From contig NZ_CP024901.1 in the NCBI RefSeq assembly GCF_003343245.1, positions 1,736,001 through 1,800,000 on the forward strand: a DNA stretch of 64,000 bases, written 5' to 3'. The stretch comes from Photorhabdus laumondii subsp. laumondii. GTDB taxonomy: Bacteria > Pseudomonadota > Gammaproteobacteria > Enterobacterales > Enterobacteriaceae. This document shows, piece by piece, positions 438 to 21,743 of the stretch. Every line of letters starts with the position of its first letter. Positions within the stretch are counted from its first letter, which is position 1. Under the pieces are notes generated by a model. It had not been told where the DNA came from and searched no databases. It saw only the letters and a program-made list of their open reading frames with translations. The position numbers were made by a program, and so were the translations under genes.

Positions 438-1544
438 ATGTTCAATATACAAGCAGTAATCAAAGAGCATGTAGTTGAAAATAAAAGGGAAAGCTTATGG
501 AGCTATCTGGAAGAACGCCCCAATTACTTGATGCTAGATAAAAATGAGAATCACCATCCAATGGATGAAGATCTTTTTGAAGCGTTTCGAGCCTCATTAA
601 AACCAGAGCATTTGTGTAATTATCCGGTGCTAAATAACTTATATAAAAAAATAGCCAAACTGGTTGGCGTTGAAGAGCGCAACATCTACCTCGGCTCGGG
701 TTCAGACCTAGCGATAAAAGCATTATTTGATGCATGCTTAAGAGAGGGAGATCATGTGGTTTTACATAACCCTTGCTACTTTATGTTTGAAAACTACGCA
801 AAGTATGCTGGGGTATCAATCTCGTCAACACCGGTCACCGAAGATTGGAAACCTGATGTAGCGGCTATTATCGATGCAGTCAAAGAAAATACCAAATTAG
901 TGATTGTAGAAGATCCGAGTGGTTTTGTCGGCACGCGTTTATCTTATTCCCAAATGCATGGCTTGGCTGAAGCGCTTTATAGCAAGGGTGTGTTGCTGCT
1001 GATTGATGAAGCCTATCTATATGTAGAAGGAAAACAAAGCGCAAACCTGGATATCTTGCAGAAATTTCCGAACGTTATTTTGGCACAAACCCTTTCTAAA
1101 GCTCATGGATTGGCAGGAGCAAGAGTCGGCTTTTTGATCGGAGGGACAGAGTTAATCGGCCATATTTCAAATGTCAGACCGCTATATGAGATTAGTGCGT
1201 TATCGGCATGGGCTGCGGAATGGCAGCTAGATCATCCTGAAGTGCTTGAACGTTTTCAGGAGAAGATGAGGCAGACAAAAGCCTATATGAGAGAAGCTTT
1301 GACCGAAAGAAGACAGACTTTCAAAGATACTCACGGTAATTTCATGTTGGTACAGTTTGCCGGATACGATTCAAAAGAGATAGAGCAATTGTTTCAAGAG
1401 CAGGGTATTTTAATCAGACGTCCGTTTGAACAGAGTAATTTAAAAGGTTGGCTGAGAGTAACCATTTCACAGCTTGAACATTGCGAAAAATTTATTTCGG
1501 CACTTGATATCGTTGTAGACAAATTGAACTTCAAAAAAATTTGA
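438..1544 (+). CDS. PLP-dependent aminotransferase, histidinol-phosphate aminotransferase-like
   Basis: A 368-residue fold-type I class I/II aminotransferase. The PLP lysine is in TLSKAHGLAGARVGF (Lys about 221), preceded by the DEAYLY motif (Asp about 190) that binds the pyridine nitrogen; GSGSDLAIKAL near residue 86 fits the phosphate-binding loop. Where HisC usually has an NPNNPTG-type segment this protein has EDPSGFVGT, an unusual replacement around the Asn that contacts PLP. It is not next to his genes but between an exporter end and VOC and PaiB-like genes, so a specialised amino-acid-like substrate is more likely than histidine synthesis (inference). A purine-rich ribosome site (aggga) lies upstream of the ATG. 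Confidence 0.8.
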   Translation: MFNIQAVIKEHVVENKRESLWSYLEERPNYLMLDKNENHHPMDEDLFEAFRASLKPEHLCNYPVLNNLYKKIAKLVGVEERNIYLGSGSDLAIKALFDACLREGDHVVLHNPCYFMFENYAKYAGVSISSTPVTEDWKPDVAAIIDAVKENTKLVIVEDPSGFVGTRLSYSQMHGLAEALYSKGVLLLIDEAYLYVEGKQSANLDILQKFPNVILAQTLSKAHGLAGARVGFLIGGTELIGHISNVRPLYEISALSAWAAEWQLDHPEVLERFQEKMRQTKAYMREALTERRQTFKDTHGNFMLVQFAGYDSKEIEQLFQEQGILIRRPFEQSNLKGWLRVTISQLEHCEKFISALDIVVDKLNFKKI

Positions 1545-1557
1545 TGAAGAGGGAATC

Positions 1558-2022
1558 ATGACAGAGAAGGCCAGAGCCGTAGGGATCAACCATGTGTCTA
1601 TTGAAGTTGGTAACATTAATGAAGCAGTCGCATTTTATAGTGCGCTTATGCGCATTAAACCCGGGCTGTTATCAGAGACTGAGGGATCGATTGAACTGGG
1701 TGATCAGTTTGTTGCCTTTACTTGCAGCCAAGGAGAACAAGCTCACAAACCTGGTCATTTTGGGTTCGTTGTTGATGATAAAGAAAAGGTTCGTGAGGCA
1801 TTAAAGCAATTCGATATTGAACCTTTGCCTGGCCGATTTTTTGGTTTTCTGGATCCTTGGGGCAATCATATCGAAGTGGTCAGCTACGAGAATATTAAAT
1901 TTACTAAGTCTCCTGGTGTTCTCAATGGTATGGGATTAGCAGACTTGAAGAAAAACGATCGTGCACAACGGGAGCTTGAAGAACAAGGTTATAGTGAGCC
2001 TTTGTCTTCTTTGAACTCATAA
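1558..2022 (+). CDS. VOC (glyoxalase/dioxygenase fold) family protein
   Basis: A 154-residue single-subunit vicinal-oxygen-chelate protein. It shows the paired beta-alpha-beta-beta-beta layout: INHVSIEVGNINEAVAFYSALM at the N-terminus, HFGFVVDD in the middle and FLDPWGNHIEVVSY at the end of the second module. His and Glu residues at the expected metal positions (NHVSI, GHFGF, NHIEV) suggest a metal site. The substrate cannot be named; such proteins serve as lyases, dioxygenases, isomerases or drug-resistance factors. It starts 13 bp after the aminotransferase stop with a clear agaggg ribosome site, so the two are almost certainly co-transcribed. Confidence 0.8.
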   Translation: MTEKARAVGINHVSIEVGNINEAVAFYSALMRIKPGLLSETEGSIELGDQFVAFTCSQGEQAHKPGHFGFVVDDKEKVREALKQFDIEPLPGRFFGFLDPWGNHIEVVSYENIKFTKSPGVLNGMGLADLKKNDRAQRELEEQGYSEPLSSLNS

Positions 2023-13024: not shown

Positions 13025-13801
13025 ATGAACAGTAACTTCAGACATCATTTTTTGGGTCTGTCGTTATTGGTTGGCGTAGCGGTTCCCTGGGCCGCTATTG
13101 CCCAAGCGCCAATCAGTAATGTCGGCTCGGGTTCTACCGATGAACGCCTTACCCAATTAGAGCGTATTTCCAATGCTCACAGTCAGCTATTAACTCAGCT
13201 CCAGCAGCAACTTGCTGATTCTCAACGTGATATTGACATGCTTCGAGGGCAGATTCAGGAGAATCAGTATCAGCTCAATCAGATTATAGAGCGGCAGAAG
13301 GATATTTATCAGCAACTGGAAGGTGCTACTAGTTCTGAGGGGAGTAAACCTGCTGCAAATACAGCTTCTTCAACGGCAAGTAATACAAAAAACAGTGGCA
13401 ATCAGGCATCATCATCTGTCAGTACAGGCAGCGAGAAGGGTGATTATGACGCTGCTGTTCATTTGGCAGTGAATACCAAAGAATATGATAAAGCGATTAT
13501 AGCCTTTCAGAGTTTCGTGAAGAGTTACCCAAAATCGAGTTACATGCCTAATGCTAATTATTGGTTAGGACAGCTTAATTACAACAAGGGTAAAAAAGAC
13601 GAAGCTGCGTATTACTTTGCTACGGTAGTAAAAGAGTACCCTAAGTCGCAGAAGAGTGGTGAATCGCTTTATAAAGTTGGTTTAATCATGCAAGACAAGG
13701 GCCAGAAAGATAAAGCGAGATCGGTTTATCAACAGGTCATGAAACAATATCCTGGTTCGAACGCAGCTAAACTGGCAGAGAAAAAGCTTTCTACGCTGTA
13801 A
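13025..13801 (+). CDS. cpoB: cell division coordinator CpoB (YbgF)
   Basis: A 258-residue periplasmic protein with a signal peptide (cleavage near AIAQA), an N-terminal trimerising coiled coil (about residues 38-95, Gln/Leu rich), a Ser/Thr/Asn-rich linker (about 100-135) and a C-terminal TPR domain (YDAAVHLAVNTKEYDKAI onwards, with YWLGQLNYNKGKKDEA). It couples Tol-Pal function to PBP1B during outer-membrane constriction. It starts 9 bp after pal and ends the cluster, just before the Lys tRNA genes. Confidence 0.95.
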   Translation: MNSNFRHHFLGLSLLVGVAVPWAAIAQAPISNVGSGSTDERLTQLERISNAHSQLLTQLQQQLADSQRDIDMLRGQIQENQYQLNQIIERQKDIYQQLEGATSSEGSKPAANTASSTASNTKNSGNQASSSVSTGSEKGDYDAAVHLAVNTKEYDKAIIAFQSFVKSYPKSSYMPNANYWLGQLNYNKGKKDEAAYYFATVVKEYPKSQKSGESLYKVGLIMQDKGQKDKARSVYQQVMKQYPGSNAAKLAEKKLSTL

Positions 13802-13889
13802 TTATTGGCCCCGGAAGGGTGTAATAATACATTTTCGGGGTTTGTTGAGTGCTTAGTAAGCATTTAAACGTAATTTGAAAAAATAATTA

Positions 13890-13917
13890 TTGCGTAGTGC
13901 AGAAAAATCAGTAATAT
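13890..13917 (+). promoter_or_regulatory. probable stable-RNA promoter for the Lys tRNA array
   Basis: TTGCGT, a 16-bp spacer and TAATAT resemble a sigma-70 promoter about 30 bp before the first tRNA. They are followed by the GC-rich stretch gccgccgttgccg, a discriminator-like feature of stringently controlled tRNA promoters. Confidence 0.4.
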
Positions 13918-13948
13918 ATGCCGCCGTTGCCGAGAGAAGTCACAAGAT

Positions 13949-14024
13949 GGGTCGTTAGCTCAGTCGGTAGAGCAGTTGACTTTTAATCAATTGGTCGCAG
14001 GTTCGAATCCTGCACGACCCACCA
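13949..14024 (+). tRNA. tRNA-Lys (anticodon TTT), copy 1, intact
   Basis: A 76-nt gene with encoded CCA. The acceptor GGGTCGT pairs with ACGACCC, the D-stem is GCTC/GAGC, the anticodon loop is CTTTTAA, and the T arm is GCAGG-TTCGAAT-CCTGC. All stems pair. It is the first unit of a tandem array downstream of cpoB, the position of the Lys/Val tRNA cluster in Escherichia coli. Confidence 0.97.
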
Positions 14025-14058
14025 TCTTAAAGCTTCATTCAAAACCAATTTCCCAGAT

Positions 14059-14134
14059 GGGTCGTTAGCTCAGTCGGTAGAGCAGTTGACTTTTAATCAA
14101 TTGGTCGCAGGTTCGAATCCTGCACGACCCACCA
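14059..14134 (+). tRNA. tRNA-Lys (anticodon TTT), copy 2, intact
   Basis: Identical to copy 1 in all 76 nt and separated from it by a 34-nt spacer (tcttaaagcttcattc...cccagat) that recurs with one or two changes after every later unit. All cloverleaf stems pair. Confidence 0.97.
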
Positions 14135-14168
14135 TCTTAGAGTTTCATTCAAAACCAATTTCCCAGAT

Positions 14169-14308
14169 GGGTCGTTAGCTCAGTCGGTAGCGCAGTTGAC
14201 TTTTAATCAATTGGTCGCAGGTTCGAGCCGAGCGAAGCGAGACAACAGCGCGTAAGCGCTGGCCCGAAGGGCGAGGCCGTAGGCCGAGTCATCCTGCACG
14301 ACCCACCA
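14169..14308 (+). tRNA. tRNA-Lys copy 3, T loop interrupted by a 64-nt insert
   Basis: The tRNA body is split after TTCGA of the T loop (between positions 58 and 59) by an insert at 14227-14290; the remainder ATCCTGC...CCA resumes directly. Removing the insert restores a 76-nt tRNA except for A23 to C, which leaves U12 opposite C23 in the D-stem. The insert folds into three short hairpins: AGCGC-GTAA-GCGCT (14247-14260), GCCC-GAA-GGGC (14262-14272) and GGCC-GTA-GGCC (14275-14285). Whether the transcript is processed or inert is unknown. Confidence 0.8.
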
Positions 14309-14342
14309 TCTTAGAGCTTCATTCAAAACCAATTTCCCAGAT

Positions 14343-14482
14343 AGGTCGTTAGCTCAGTCGGTAGAGCAGTTGACTTTTAATCAATTGGTCGCAGGTTCGA
14401 GCCGAGCGAAGCGAGACAACAGCGCGTAAGCGCTGGCCCGAAGGGCGAGGCCGTAGGCCGAGTCATCCTGCACGACCCACCA
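14343..14482 (+). tRNA. tRNA-Lys copy 4, interrupted (insert 14401-14464)
   Basis: Same insertion site and identical insert as copy 3. The D-stem is wild type (GAGC), but the first acceptor base is A instead of G, giving A1 opposite C72. That would also disturb RNase P cleavage and end pairing. Confidence 0.8.
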
Positions 14483-14516
14483 TCTTAGAGCTTCATTCAA
14501 AACCAATTTCCCAGAT

Positions 14517-14656
14517 AGGTCGTTAGCTCAGTCGGTAGAGTAGTTGACTTTTAATCAATTGGTCGCAGGTTCGAGCCGAGCGAAGCGAGACAACAGCGCG
14601 TAAGCGCTGGCCCGAAGGGCGAGGCCGTAGGCCGAGTCATCCTGCACGACCCACCA
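14517..14656 (+). tRNA. tRNA-Lys copy 5, interrupted (insert 14575-14638)
   Basis: Identical 64-nt insert at the same T-loop position. The body carries G1 to A and C25 to T (GAGT), so both the acceptor and D stems are weakened compared with copies 1-2. Confidence 0.8.
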
Positions 14657-14690
14657 TCTTAGAGTTTCATTCAAAACCAATTTCCCAGAT

Positions 14691-14830
14691 GGGTCGTTAG
14701 CTCAGTCGGTAGCGCAGTTGACTTTTAATCAATTGGTCGCAGGTTCGAGCCGAGCGAAGCGAGACAACAGCGCGTAAGCGCTGGCCCGAAGGGCGAGGCC
14801 GTAGGCCGAGTCATCCTGCACGACCCACCA
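14691..14830 (+). tRNA. tRNA-Lys copy 6, interrupted (insert 14749-14812)
   Basis: Identical 64-nt insert at the same T-loop position. The body matches copy 3, including the A23 to C change in the D-stem; the acceptor end is wild type. Confidence 0.8.
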
Positions 14831-14864
14831 TCTTAGAGTTTCATTCAAAACCAATTTCCCAGAT

Positions 14865-15004
14865 GGGTCGTTAGCTCAGTCGGTAGCGCAGTTGACTTTT
14901 AATCAATTGGTCGCAGGTTCGAGCCGAGCGAAGCGAGACAACAGCGCGTAAGCGCTGGCCCGAAGGGCGAGGCCGTAGGCCGAGTCATCCTGCACGACCC
15001 ACCA
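14865..15004 (+). tRNA. tRNA-Lys copy 7, interrupted (insert 14923-14986)
   Basis: Identical 64-nt insert at the same T-loop position, with the A23 to C D-stem change. The whole unit equals copy 6, indicating recent duplication or conversion. Confidence 0.8.
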
Positions 15005-15038
15005 TCTTAGAGTTTCATTCAAAACCAATTTCCCAGAT

Positions 15039-15178
15039 GGGTCGTTAGCTCAGTCGGTAGCGCAGTTGACTTTTAATCAATTGGTCGCAGGTTCGAGCCG
15101 AGCGAAGCGAGACAACAGCGCGTAAGCGCTGGCCCGAAGGGCGAGGCCGTAGGCCGAGTCATCCTGCACGACCCACCA
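15039..15178 (+). tRNA. tRNA-Lys copy 8, interrupted (insert 15097-15160)
   Basis: Last complete unit of the array. It has the identical 64-nt insert and the A23 to C change; only the following spacer differs slightly (agcttc instead of agtttc). Confidence 0.8.
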
Positions 15179-15212
15179 TCTTAGAGCTTCATTCAAAACC
15201 AATTTCCCAGAT

Positions 15213-15287
15213 GGATCGTTAGCTCAGTCGGTAGCGCAGTTGACTTTTAATCAATTGGTCGCAGGTTCGAGCCGAGCGAAGCGAGAC
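15213..15287 (+). pseudogene. tRNA-Lys copy 9, truncated inside the insert
   Basis: Contains the 5' 58 nt of the tRNA, with G3 to A (ggatcg) and A23 to C, plus only the first 17 nt of the insert. The sequence then changes abruptly to unrelated DNA at 15288, so the T-arm 3' half, the acceptor 3' strand and CCA are missing. It marks the junction between the tRNA array and the accessory island. Confidence 0.9.
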
Positions 15288-15405
15288 TGACTGACATTTC
15301 GACGAGTGGTACCGGGTCGCTTTGTTCCATATTCTCTTCATCGTTCTGCTGAATAATTACTTCCTTGATCGTAACTGTATGAGAAGAGTCCTTTTGCATT
15401 TTCAT
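15247..15405 (-). CDS. 52-residue truncated frame reading into the tRNA array
   Basis: Starts at ATG 15405 after a gaggaaac ribosome site and encodes a polar, acidic N-terminus (MKMQKDSSHTVTIKEVIIQQ). From about residue 41 it runs across the junction at 15287 into antisense tRNA and insert sequence (LASLGSNLRPID) and stops at 15247. The native 3' end of this gene was evidently lost at the junction. It lies 80 bp downstream of the nucleotidyltransferase gene on the same strand. I do not recognise the family. Confidence 0.4.
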   Translation of the reverse strand: MKMQKDSSHTVTIKEVIIQQNDEENMEQSDPVPLVEMSVSLASLGSNLRPID

Positions 15406-15484
15406 TTTTTTCTAGTTTCCTCATTGAACTGTTTCGTTTGACTTTTGATTACACTTACAGGTTTTTTGTGGTGTTCGAGATTAT

Positions 15485-16336
15485 TTAACCATAACAAACT
15501 TGCATAATATGCTTCCTGACTTTACTGGGTAGCTCACTATCGAACTCAAACCCCTTCATTTCTGCCACTTCAGCAGAAATCTCCGAATAAAGCTCTGTGG
15601 TTTCCAGCAATGCTCGTATCGCTTCTTCTTTGCCATAACTGCTAAAAATCCCTTGAATATGTTTGCTGAACTTCTCAGGCAGCCATTCATGCAAATGATG
15701 GCCGTTGTACCAGACATCCGTCTTTCCATCACTTTTTATCGAGACGTACCACTCCATCATTGCCAGCAATAAGTCTTTCATCTCATTATCCCTCATTCTT
15801 GCATGCCATAAATCACCACGAGTGATATAAACAGGTACTTGTGTTGCCTCGAACCAGAACTCGCGCAGGTTTTCATTAAACTCTGTTGATGATGGAATAT
15901 ACGATTTAGTCAATTGGTGAGTAATTTCAGGAAGTCCGTTTGTAAGGCCCGTCTTATCAAGGAGGACCTTATAGCCGCGTTGATAAAGTTCATCCAAGCC
16001 TCTTTGTTTCATATCTTTCAGGCGTTTAACACTTGCCAGTGTGAAATCCACCTTACGACCGCCGTTAAAAACGACCAGACAAGTTGGCCAATCTGGTTCA
16101 TCCTCTTTTTCATTAGCCAGATGCAATGCAACCATAACGTCACCCAACTGCTTAAACCATAAATCGTTGCCTATTAATTCATCTGTTCCTGAACCAATCA
16201 GTTCTATATCTAGATCTGAGAATTTATCTACACGTGCATTTCTGGCACGGGAACCTGTTTGGATAACTGTATCAATACGGGGATCGTTATGGGCAAAAGT
16301 CAGGATTTTTTCCAGAAGGATTACCGGGTCTTCCAT
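15485..16336 (-). CDS. aminoglycoside 6-adenylyltransferase-like nucleotidyltransferase
   Basis: A 283-residue protein of the streptomycin adenylyltransferase (AadE/AadK, ANT(6)) family. The nucleotidyltransferase core is at the N-terminus: GSRARN (residues 28-33), SDLDIEL (40-46, two catalytic Asp) and KVDFTL near residue 95 as the third carboxylate. The C-terminal helical region includes LREFWFEATQVPVYITRGDLWHAR-like sequence (about 160-185), typical of the family. Family enzymes transfer AMP to streptomycin, but chromosomal homologues may have other substrates, so resistance is inference. It is transcribed toward the tRNA array from the edge of an accessory island. Confidence 0.85.
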   Translation of the reverse strand: MEDPVILLEKILTFAHNDPRIDTVIQTGSRARNARVDKFSDLDIELIGSGTDELIGNDLWFKQLGDVMVALHLANEKEDEPDWPTCLVVFNGGRKVDFTLASVKRLKDMKQRGLDELYQRGYKVLLDKTGLTNGLPEITHQLTKSYIPSSTEFNENLREFWFEATQVPVYITRGDLWHARMRDNEMKDLLLAMMEWYVSIKSDGKTDVWYNGHHLHEWLPEKFSKHIQGIFSSYGKEEAIRALLETTELYSEISAEVAEMKGFEFDSELPSKVRKHIMQVCYG

Positions 16337-16893: not shown

Positions 16894-17139
16894 ATGCCAG
16901 AAGATTCAGTTTGAAATTTAAAACAGAAAAAGTTACGGGATGAAATAGAAAGAATAAGAGAAAAATAATTTCCAGATGTTAAATGTAAATTTTTAAGGTA
17001 TATTTTCGATTCCAAAATATTGAACTATATTATTTTTCTGAACTAGACTTTAATTGGAGTGAATTGCAGGAGAGTTATTTTTAAAATAATTCAATATATT
17101 GATTATAAAATAATATTATTTAATTTAAGGAGAAAGTAC

Positions 17140-18042
17140 ATGAGTCATAAGAATGATTTTAAAGCTTTTTCTATTAGTGATAATGCAAATGTGGTTAGTC
17201 AAGAAAAATATGAAGAAAACCAAAGTTTGCAGACTGGATTTCCATCGGGTAATGTTACCACTCACTTGTTAAATAAGGTATTACGTCAGTCATCAACCAT
17301 ATCATCTGTCGTCGCTGATTTTATCGCGACACAATCTGGCAATGATATTCTGGATGATGGAAATGTAGCTAAACTCACCGCTCAATTAAATAAAGCGATA
17401 GCACAAAAAATTACAACAGATATGCCCAATGCTTCATTAACACAAAAAGGTGTTGTTCAGCTTACAAATGTGATTGGCAATAGTGATACATTGGCAGTGA
17501 CGCAAAAGCTTGTTCAGCAAGAAATAAACTCATTACGTGAGCATACTTATACCCGCGAAGAGATAGATAACCGGATTAAAACAGTCGGTGAAATTCCTGT
17601 TGGTTCTCCTATTCCCTGGCCGTTGCCCTATCCACCTGTTGGTTATCTCACTTGCAACGGCTCAGCTTTTAATAAATTACAGTACCCAAAGTTAGCAGAA
17701 GCTTATCCTGACGGTAGGCTACCTGATTTAAGGGGCGAATTTATTCGTGGTTGGGATGATGGACGCGGTGTGGACATGGGACGCACAATGCTGTCGTGGC
17801 AGGGGGATGCGATGCAGCGAATGACAGGTTTTTTAGAAGCTGGTAACGGCATTGGTTTGATGACGCGTCCACATGATTCCACATCCGGAGTTTTTCTAGA
17901 GGGTGACTTGAGAACAATATCTCATGTGACACAAAATGGAACATCGTACGCAGTTAGTTTCGATTCATCACGTGTCGCACGTACTGCAAATGAAACTCGC
18001 CCTCGTAACATTGCATTTAACTACGTTGTAAGGGCAGCATAA
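17140..18042 (+). CDS. phage-type tail fibre/collar protein, paralogue 1
   Basis: A 300-residue protein starting at ATG 17140 after aaggagaaag; the frame extends upstream to 17059, but that extension is not shared by the paralogues. The N-terminal region (MSHKNDFKAFSIS...) contains helical segments (residues 40-150). A tail-collar domain follows, with PVGSPIPWP, GYLTCNGSAFN, YPKLAEAYP and GRLPDLRGEFIRGWDDGRG (about residues 153-212), then a variable tip and the conserved end RPRNIAFNYVVRAA. Collar proteins form receptor-binding fibre tips in phage tails and tail-derived particles. There are no other tail genes nearby, so it may supply alternative tips to a distant particle (inference). Confidence 0.85.
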   Translation: MSHKNDFKAFSISDNANVVSQEKYEENQSLQTGFPSGNVTTHLLNKVLRQSSTISSVVADFIATQSGNDILDDGNVAKLTAQLNKAIAQKITTDMPNASLTQKGVVQLTNVIGNSDTLAVTQKLVQQEINSLREHTYTREEIDNRIKTVGEIPVGSPIPWPLPYPPVGYLTCNGSAFNKLQYPKLAEAYPDGRLPDLRGEFIRGWDDGRGVDMGRTMLSWQGDAMQRMTGFLEAGNGIGLMTRPHDSTSGVFLEGDLRTISHVTQNGTSYAVSFDSSRVARTANETRPRNIAFNYVVRAA

Positions 18043-19593: not shown

Positions 19594-20508
19594 ATGAGTC
19601 ACAAGAATGATTTTAAGGCTTTTTCTATTAGTAGTAATGCAAATGTCATTAGTCAAGCAAAATATGAACAAAACTTGGGTTTGCAGGTGGGATTTTCTCC
19701 GGATAATGTTCCCACTCATTTGTTAAATAAGGTATTACGTCAGTCATCAACTATATCATCTGTCGTCGCTGATTTTATCGCGACACAATCTGGCAATGAT
19801 ATTCTGGATGATGGAAATGTAGCTAAACTCACCGCTCAATTAAATAAAGCGATAGCACAAAAAATTACAACAGATATGCCCAATGCTTCATTAACACAAA
19901 AAGGTGTTGTTCAGCTTACAAATGTGATTGGCAATAGTGATACATTGGCAGTGACGCAAAAGCTTGTTCAGCAAGAAATAAACTCATTACGTGAGCATAC
20001 TTATACCCGCGAAGAGATAGATAACCGGATTAAAACAGTCGGTGAAATTCCTGTTGGTTCTCCTATTCCCTGGCCGTTACTCTATCCACCTTTCGGTTAT
20101 TTTATTTGTAATGGCTCACCTTTTAATAAATCACAGTATCCGAAGTTGGCGGAGGCTTATCCTAGCGGTAGATTACCTGATTTAAGAGGAGAATTTATCC
20201 GCGGATGGGATGATAATCGTGGTGTTGATAGTGGTCGTGGGCTTTTGTCTTGGCAGGGAGATGCAATTAGAAATATTACAGGGACAACTCAAATGATACA
20301 TGCTCAGATGGGCGGTGCTCCCCAGACGCCTGTTGTGAGTGGGGTTATGGCATCGTCGCGATATGCTACGGCAGATACACGTTCAGCAAATAGCGGCGGT
20401 AGTACTGATCTTACATATTTTGACATTGATGCATCAAGACAAGTCCCAACCGCTAACGAAAATAGACCCCGTAACGTGGCATTTAACTACATCGTAAAGG
20501 CGGCATAA
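19594..20508 (+). CDS. phage-type tail fibre/collar protein, paralogue 2
   Basis: A 304-residue paralogue of the fibre at 17140, with the same N-terminal domain and collar motifs (PVGSPIPWPLLYPPFGYFIC, GRLPDLRGEFIRGWDDNRG) but an unrelated tip between about residues 225 and 285 (TQMIHAQMGGAPQTP region). The central roughly 330 bp are almost identical in nucleotide sequence to gene 1, while both ends differ, pointing to recent gene conversion or recombination. It starts at ATG 19594 after aaggaaa. Confidence 0.85.
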   Translation: MSHKNDFKAFSISSNANVISQAKYEQNLGLQVGFSPDNVPTHLLNKVLRQSSTISSVVADFIATQSGNDILDDGNVAKLTAQLNKAIAQKITTDMPNASLTQKGVVQLTNVIGNSDTLAVTQKLVQQEINSLREHTYTREEIDNRIKTVGEIPVGSPIPWPLLYPPFGYFICNGSPFNKSQYPKLAEAYPSGRLPDLRGEFIRGWDDNRGVDSGRGLLSWQGDAIRNITGTTQMIHAQMGGAPQTPVVSGVMASSRYATADTRSANSGGSTDLTYFDIDASRQVPTANENRPRNVAFNYIVKAA

Positions 20509-20690: not shown

Positions 20691-20924
20691 AAAATAATTT
20701 CAGAGATTAAATATAAATTTTGAGGGGATATATTTTCGATTAAAAAATGTTGAGATATTTATTGCTGCCAATTATATAAAAATGATTAACCTCATAAGTA
20801 ATAAGAACGCTCCATTGTGATTTTTCTGAACTAGACTGTTATTTATGTAAATTACGATAAATCGTTTTTACAATAGTTTAATATGTTTCTTATGAAAGAA
20901 TATTATTTGATTCAAGAGGTATGT

Positions 20925-21743
20925 ATGAGTCCTAAAAATGATTTTAAGGCTTTTTCTATTAGTGATAATGCGAATGTGGTCAGTCAAGAAAAATATGAAG
21001 AAAACCAGGGTTTGCAGACTGGCTTTCCCCCAGATAATGTTCCTACGCACGTGTTAAATAAGGTATTACGTCAAGTATCAACGGTATCATCTGTGGTGGC
21101 TGATTTTATTGCGGCACAATCTGGCAATGATGTTCTGGATGATGGAAATATAGCTAAACTCACAGATCAATTGAATAAAGCGTTAGAACAAAAAATTACA
21201 ACAGATATTCCCAGTGCTTCGTTAACACAAAAAGGTGTTGTCCAGTTGACAAATGTGATGGGTAATAGCGACACATTGGCAGTGACACAAAAGCTTGTTC
21301 AGGAAGTAATAAATGCATTACGTGCAGATATTACTATACCTGTGGGTTCACCTATACCGTGGCCGTTGCCTAATCCCCCTACCGGTTATTTTATTTGTAA
21401 TGGTTCAGCTTTTAATTCATTACAGTACCCGCAATTAGCTGAAGCTTATCCTAGTGGTAGATTACCTGATTTAAGAGGTGAGTTTATCCGGGGATGGGAT
21501 GATGGGCGTGGGGTTGATCTGGGGAGGGCGCTATTGACTTGGCAAGAAAGCACTTCATTGGCGGAATACCTTGGTCATTTCCCAAGAGGGGGAGGGCAAC
21601 AGATAGTAAACTACGACGGTATTGCAAGTAGTGCGGCAGGATATTTAAAATACAACGTAACATCACCAACAACCACTGGGGTTAATTTCTTACGATTTCG
21701 ACCACGCAATGTCGCATTTAACTACATTGTCAGGGCGGCATAA
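20925..21743 (+). CDS. phage-type tail fibre/collar protein, paralogue 3
   Basis: A 272-residue paralogue starting at ATG 20925 after ttcaagagg; the frame extends to 20883, but the ribosome site and the conserved MSPKNDFKAFSIS start favour 20925. It lacks the short EHTYTREEIDNRIKTVGE-type segment present in paralogues 1 and 2 and goes directly into PVGSPIPWPLPNPPTGYFIC. The tip is different again (STSLAEYLGHFPRGGGQQI), with the end RPRNVAFNYIVRAA retained. Nucleotide divergence from genes 1-2 is larger than between those two. Confidence 0.85.
   Translation: MSPKNDFKAFSISDNANVVSQEKYEENQGLQTGFPPDNVPTHVLNKVLRQVSTVSSVVADFIAAQSGNDVLDDGNIAKLTDQLNKALEQKITTDIPSASLTQKGVVQLTNVMGNSDTLAVTQKLVQEVINALRADITIPVGSPIPWPLPNPPTGYFICNGSAFNSLQYPQLAEAYPSGRLPDLRGEFIRGWDDGRGVDLGRALLTWQESTSLAEYLGHFPRGGGQQIVNYDGIASSAAGYLKYNVTSPTTTGVNFLRFRPRNVAFNYIVRAA

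Follow-up and report, generated by a model that had tools for sequence, protein, structure and literature searches.

The tRNA-Lys(UUU) array carried by the window, as we call the whole 64,000-nucleotide stretch of Photorhabdus laumondii DNA analysed here, is best explained as a row of fused tRNA-linked repeats (TLRs). The 64-nt segment that seems to split six of its genes in the T loop is, with near certainty, the core of a TLR, the RNA family named RtT in Rfam, and in each insert-bearing unit the 5' half of tRNA-Lys has probably taken the place of the usual TLR 5' arm. TLRs, also in tandem, have been described before; the fused, amplified form appears to be new.

The organisation of the array corresponds to what the first-pass annotation had described: two intact tRNA-Lys genes, detected by ARAGORN, six units with an insert and a truncated ninth (Table 1). 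In each of the six full 174-bp units, an identical 64-nt core lies between bases A58 and A59 of the T loop, as had been noticed, and is directly followed by the 18-nt tRNA 3' end ATCCTGCACGACCCACCA. TRF detected a period of 174 with 6.7 copies and 98% matches, and a 74-base core query gave six 100% matches in the genome, which is a single 5.69-Mb contig. Spacers are nearly alike behind intact and interrupted tRNA-Lys units, which indicates that whole units were amplified. The concern that the array might be an assembly artefact is answered by the other genomes of the genus, as the array is not peculiar to one assembly: a core match was present in 11 of the 12 (in G011 over 31 of 74 bases only), and one locus, L039, contains 14 full units and one truncated.

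Table 1. Features of the tRNA-Lys array (window coordinates; RtT, RF00391).
Feature	Position	Strand	Remarks
Likely -10/discriminator of the tRNA-Lys operon promoter	13912..13928	+	TAATATATGCCGCCGTT; putative, same element before tRNA-Lys in other genera
Intact tRNA-Lys(UUU), copy 1	13949..14024	+	ARAGORN; RF00005 79.2 bits
Intact tRNA-Lys(UUU), copy 2	14059..14134	+	ARAGORN; RF00005 79.2 bits
Unit 3	14169..14308	+	5' half 14169-14226, core 14227-14290, 3' end 14291-14308; C23 against T12 breaks pair 12-23; RtT 90.4 bits at 14176-14308
Unit 4	14343..14482	+	5' half 14343-14400, core 14401-14464, 3' end 14465-14482; A1 against C72 breaks pair 1-72; RtT 91.9 bits
Unit 5	14517..14656	+	5' half 14517-14574, core 14575-14638, 3' end 14639-14656; A1 against C72 breaks pair 1-72; RtT 90.3 bits
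Unit 6	14691..14830	+	5' half 14691-14748, core 14749-14812, 3' end 14813-14830; C23 against T12 breaks pair 12-23; RtT 90.4 bits
Unit 7	14865..15004	+	5' half 14865-14922, core 14923-14986, 3' end 14987-15004; C23 against T12 breaks pair 12-23; RtT 90.4 bits
Unit 8	15039..15178	+	5' half 15039-15096, core 15097-15160, 3' end 15161-15178; C23 against T12 breaks pair 12-23; RtT 90.4 bits
Unit 9, truncated	15213..15287	+	5' half 15213-15270; core 15271-15287 (17 nt), beyond which the sequence is unrelated

The array is preceded by ORFs which we take to be tol-pal-cpoB. Directly behind it, an ORF at 15485-16336 (minus strand) matches Adenyl_transf (PF04439, E 3.9e-72), a family named after streptomycin adenylyltransferase; the ORFs at 17059-18042, 19594-20508 and 20883-21743 have a large part of their N-terminal region in common and look, by eye, like repeated tail-fibre-type genes. 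At a second lysine locus of the same genome (L032:1548-2510; G000:C1, about 1684547-1685509), a TLR core is interrupted by ~850 bp containing a helix-turn-helix ORF (1698-1994, minus strand; PF01381) and two short ORFs, one of which partly matches PF06296 RelE. From its sequence, this insert looks like a broken toxin-antitoxin-like pair, and in L040 and L048 its start again follows the core at this position.

The identity of the core was established by the Rfam model RF00391 (RtT), which matched the six full units at 90.3-91.9 bits, the gathering cut-off being 45 bits. TLRs belong to tRNA or rRNA operons, and their last 18-19 bp repeat the 3' end of the upstream gene exactly (PMC8144298); in each of the six units, 18 of 18 bases are identical to the 3' end of the upstream tRNA-Lys. 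The structurally conserved multi-hairpin core that goes with the class was also observed (139 distinct cores). The 5' arm of the Rfam consensus, complementary to the host 3' end, is missing from the Lys units of the genus; since TLRs are defined in print by their 3' end, the array was filed as a TLR variant despite this missing arm. The geometry first read from the sequence is correct, and the segment itself is a known RNA rather than a novel one.

TLRs were first described in 1978, and their function was still called unknown in 2021 by a paper that counts 22 members of the class in E. coli and gives as founding papers Egan and Landy 1978, Bosl and Kersten 1991 and 1994, and Rudd 1999 (PMC8144298). 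In the tyrT-tyrV region of E. coli K-12, four RtT matches were obtained, three behind tyrV and one between tyrT and tyrV, and the core is likewise flanked by GGTTCGA (or GGTTCGG) and ATCC. There is no annotated feature at three of these matches (L031:1864-1995, 1389-1520 and 1211-1342, minus strand), and the fourth overlaps rttR. The E. coli TLRs share with the array the core sequence and its hairpins, the T-arm strand before the core, the 18-nt copy of the host 3' end after it and tandem repetition in a tRNA operon. However, they possess an arm complementary to the host 3' end at the place where the window array has a complete tRNA-Lys 5' half, and it is due to this half that the core is located in the T loop of a tRNA gene.

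Other relatives have been described. RrA, RrB and RrF belong to the same class by their 3'-end copy; unlike the array, they are found in the rRNA operons of E. coli, and they bind CsrA in vitro, whereas a low CsrA score is predicted for the TLRs of tRNA operons (PMC8144298). In Actinobacillus pleuropneumoniae, the northern-blot-positive RtT sRNAs Arrc20 and Arrc21 lie beside tRNA-Asn and tRNA-Lys; they are placed upstream of the tRNA genes, and the passages on them mention no fused or amplified form in a paper that still cites a stringent-response role for RtT (PMC4986893). Candidate attenuators containing BIME resemble rtT (PMC2965389), and a 175-bp VNTR lies within an rtT RNA of Salmonella (PMC2658671). 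In the open-licence literature, founding papers excepted, no description was found of a TLR core joined to the 5' half of a tRNA, nor of arrays built from such units. The initial remark that no description of such an array was known stands within that literature, except that the core itself has long been known.

RF00391 was detected in 68 of 119 sampled genomes of the family, the present one included (66 over the cut-off), in 17 of 99 genomes of the order (13 over the cut-off) and, among 14 well-known control genomes, in E. coli only. Plasmid and phage collections gave only partial matches, at 75-88% and 77-80% identity, respectively, with no annotated feature beneath them. The fused form was searched for by patterns covering tRNA-Lys and tRNA-Tyr hosts. 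The Lys pattern was present in 15 of 392 family genomes and 8 of 154 genera, own genus included; as it spans only the region from the anticodon loop to the core, these counts include partial 5' halves. The Tyr pattern was present in 3 of 159 family genomes, namely this one and two of other genera (G119, G107). A scan of genome contigs returned 27 stretches (17 Photorhabdus, 4 Xenorhabdus, 2 Pectobacterium, 2 Chimaeribacter, 1 Brenneria and 1 Candidatus Symbiopectobacterium), the two Pectobacterium records being tRNA-like only from about the anticodon arm onwards. The fused form extends beyond lysine: the genome studied here has one at tRNA-Tyr (L218), plus a usual TLR at tRNA-Ser (L219, 51 bits). 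At L218 (G000:C1:2950269-2950429), the fused TLR is upstream of the intact tRNA-Tyr; in the Lys array, the intact genes come first. In the genus, Lys loci contain from 1 to 14 full units, and a truncated core ends 12 of 19 of them. In one set of 11 loci, four (L161, L164, L167, L168) are on the opposite strand and were scored by Rfam only.

The usual and the fused forms were compared on their 5' side, in a set including 80 RtT loci of other genera (taken from the best listed hits, hence not sampled at random), E. coli tyrT and 18 stretches from the genus. Further copies of the last 18 bases of each tRNA were searched for near the RtT loci; 18 of the 203 end matches had no recognisable core and were dropped, and no end match was obtained for 5 of the 80 other-genus loci (L112, L118, L138, L145, L155) and for L050. 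Units with a recognisable core numbered 67 at tRNA-Tyr, 33 at tRNA-Pro and 23 at tRNA-Lys in other genera, 4 in E. coli and 58 at tRNA-Lys in the genus, the window array standing outside this last count. Among the best listed loci of other genera, a GAGAA arm was present in 104 of 123 units (58/67 Tyr, 19/23 Lys, 27/33 Pro), whereas none of the 58 Lys units of the genus contained it. Identity of the 5' side to the tRNA half had a median of 95% in the latter units, with a single one (L041) below 70%, and reached at most 44% in other genera. The 5' side of TLRs is therefore bimodal, either arm or tRNA half.

In the usual form, the arm is complementary to the 3' end of its own host. The mean longest helix between arm and host 3' end was 9.0 for Tyr (63 distinct), compared to 5.4-5.6 when hosts were swapped, 7.7 against 4.7-5.2 for Lys (18 distinct) and 6.9 against 5.1-6.0 for Pro (28 distinct), where the contrast is small. 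Furthermore, the 5' strand of the host T arm (..AGGTTCGA) is repeated just before the usual TLR core, with a median identical run of 9 bases.

Two pairs of loci point to the way in which the fused form would have been generated. The tRNA-Tyr locus was searched for in 11 genomes of the genus, and the arms were read by eye from the sequence letters. The fused form is present in five genomes (L220-L224), where 59-65 of 67 5'-side bases agree with tRNA-Tyr, and the usual form in three (L225, L226, L228), where 20-22 of 67 agree, both with the same core type; only the tRNA part was found in G006 and G011, and G009 (L227) was counted as neither form. The second pair comes from tRNA-Lys in another genus, where the cores of the usual L122 and the fused L175 are one base apart and have the same defective 3' end; to judge from these sequences, they are likely one locus. 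In both pairs, the two forms diverge at the 8-9-bp T-arm repeat AGGTTCGA common to tRNA and TLR, so that a deletion between repeats, with tandem amplification, explains the apparent T-loop insert. In a single step, a deletion reaching from the T arm of an intact tRNA gene to the T-arm copy in the following TLR would have taken out the tRNA 3' end together with the spacer and the arm of the TLR, so that the tRNA 5' half, the core and the 3' end were left; unequal recombination would afterwards have amplified the unit together with its spacer. As judged from these end products, fusion by deletion is very probable. The direction could also have been the opposite one, with the fused form older than the usual one; in a related reading, which we regard as unlikely, all TLRs would have begun as T-loop fusions and acquired their host-complementary arm later.

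The capacity of the units to encode a tRNA was examined on 78 core-bearing units from 19 loci of the genus, window included. Fourteen units without 3' end and one whose half was too diverged were set aside, the 3' end being present in 64 units and 63 being testable without gaps. A stem pair of the cloverleaf is broken in 39 of the 63 units and in none of 37 uninterrupted copies; the remaining 24 units have no broken pair. The breaks are mostly A-C at acceptor positions 1-3 or concern pair 12-23, and they affect all six full units of the window. In the window, removal of the insert leaves a sequence of tRNA length, as had been proposed, but one with a broken stem pair in each of these six units. 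At tRNA-Tyr, a break in the acceptor, anticodon or T stem was seen in 5 of 6 distinct full fused units. The anticodon TTT is kept in 74 of 76 units, and all 19 loci contain at least one intact tRNA-Lys gene. With most units broken, tRNA function is not what is generally kept.

The changes observed in the fused 5' halves are concentrated in two places, namely positions 1-3, where most are G to A, and the variable loop, where T44G is present in 40 of 76 units; across the genus loci, the anticodon arm hardly varies. Positions 1-3 account for 26 of 100 locus-level changes, which 0 of 20000 uniform draws reach; this excess is a lead only, as the genus loci share descent and uniform draws overstate their independence.

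Variation within loci was measured at 12 loci with at least two full units, that is, on 189 pairs, about half of them from the 14-unit L039. The pooled pairwise difference was 0.144 for the spacer, 0.107 for the acceptor 5' strand and 0.094 for the variable loop; it was 0.030 for the D arm, 0.029 for the anticodon arm, 0.025 for the T-arm strand, 0.024 for the core stems, 0.051 for the unpaired core and 0.021 for the 3' end. Per-locus means followed the same trend (0.082, 0.070 and 0.090 for spacer, acceptor and variable loop versus 0.012-0.028). A mere relic does not account for the low variation of the D and anticodon arms, and conversion by the intact genes should have homogenised the acceptor strand too.

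The hairpins of the core are conserved. Over 139 distinct cores, 89.7% of cells are paired, compared to 25-36% when the partners were slid, and H2 and H4 display two-sided, compensatory changes. The core hairpins are therefore kept by compensatory changes, covariation being unable to separate RNA from DNA hairpins. The closing pairs 17-62 (54/139) and 15-64 (83/138) pair poorly over all hosts and are weak outside the genus. For the cores of the fused form, 32 sequences of the genus were compared; 97.4% of their cells are paired, and G-C/C-G swaps occur at 51-57. For fused units, mean predicted pair probabilities were 0.90 for H2, 0.66 for H3, 0.74 for H4 and 0.59 for the acceptor, versus 0.17-0.21 for the D, anticodon and T stems, and the full cloverleaf was absent from the RNAalifold consensus of 53 distinct fused units. 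An alternative pairing of the D/anticodon region with the 3' end, which formed an outer helix in a single MFE fold, was also considered and rejected; it was more stable than the cloverleaf with the hairpins in 15 of the 53 distinct units, and RNAalifold chose otherwise.

Among the options listed by the first-pass annotation, a structured, possibly regulatory RNA fits best with these sequence data. The element TAATAT..GCCGCC before the first tRNA-Lys recurs in other genera, and the array would be read through from this putative lysine tRNA promoter. By analogy with the 3'-end copy of RrB, proposed as an RNase E signal (PMC8144298), the 3'-end copy of each unit could act as a processing signal. 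The units would then release structured RtT-type RNAs, not lysine tRNA, and, as a first guess, these might serve as decoys or sponges of proteins that process tRNA or bind RNA. We give even chances to the units producing an RNA that is of use to the cell. A bolder proposal, which we regard as unlikely, is that each fused unit is an independent gene for a hybrid RNA, in which the D, anticodon and T arms of tRNA-Lys form the 5' domain and the TLR core forms the 3' domain; this RNA would have been selected as a multi-copy partner of tRNA-Lys (decoy or sponge), with a freed acceptor strand that keeps it from acting as a tRNA.

The array could also be an inert leftover, that is, fused TLRs forming only the tandem-repeat expansion of a relic, silent or degraded and useless. 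The copy number ranging from 1 to 14, the frequent truncated ends and the decay of the tRNA halves speak for this, as do the loss of the host-complementary arm by deletion and a scan of 13800-15600 for the sigma-70 consensus and terminators, in which nothing was scored, the element at 13912..13928 included. However, the core stems, T arm, 3' end, D arm and anticodon arm are several times less variable than the spacer, acceptor strand and variable loop, and the core hairpins of the fused form keep their pairing through base swaps. We consider inertness rather unlikely.

Palindromic elements enter tRNA genes in Rickettsia, and a selfish palindrome inserting into T loops had been among the possibilities raised. 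The same junction is indeed used in Lys, Tyr and Pro hosts, and the core is a row of short hairpins. Nevertheless, when one core per locus was compared (73 of the 80 loci), 70 of 73 loci had their nearest core beside the same host tRNA, and only 5 of 73 had it in the same genome; this grouping by host was reached by 0 of 2000 label shuffles. Copies within a genome are not closer than copies at the same host: beside different hosts, the core distance was 0.304 in one genome, nearly the 0.339 of different genomes. Furthermore, by inspection, no target-site duplication flanks the core (TTCGA / core / ATCC), and the usual arms fit the 3' end of their own host best. TLRs thus seem to have been settled in their tRNA operons for a long time and not to move freely as palindromes, and a mobile element is very improbable here.

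Group I introns and archaeal introns also interrupt tRNA genes, as the core does. Excision of the core and rejoining of the halves into a working tRNA-Lys, the first option of the initial reading, would agree with an insertion exactly between bases 58 and 59, with the unbroken units and with the conserved anticodon, but it is scarcely credible, because most genus units and all window units are broken while uninterrupted copies are not, intact genes adjoin at every genus locus, the same core is elsewhere a separate element with its own arm behind tRNA genes, and none of the 21 Rfam matches obtained for 13400-16000 (E up to 1) is a group I intron. The array thus differs from these introns by a known RNA domain and by cloverleafs that are often broken.

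The fusion of a TLR to its host gene accounts for tRNA genes that appear interrupted in their T loop, so that no novel type of intron has to be postulated. In addition, the fused arrays constitute natural test material: within one genus, the tRNA-Tyr locus occurs in the usual as well as in the fused form, as many as 14 full units stand in a row, and the marker bases specific to each unit let small-RNA sequencing distinguish splicing, processing and silence.
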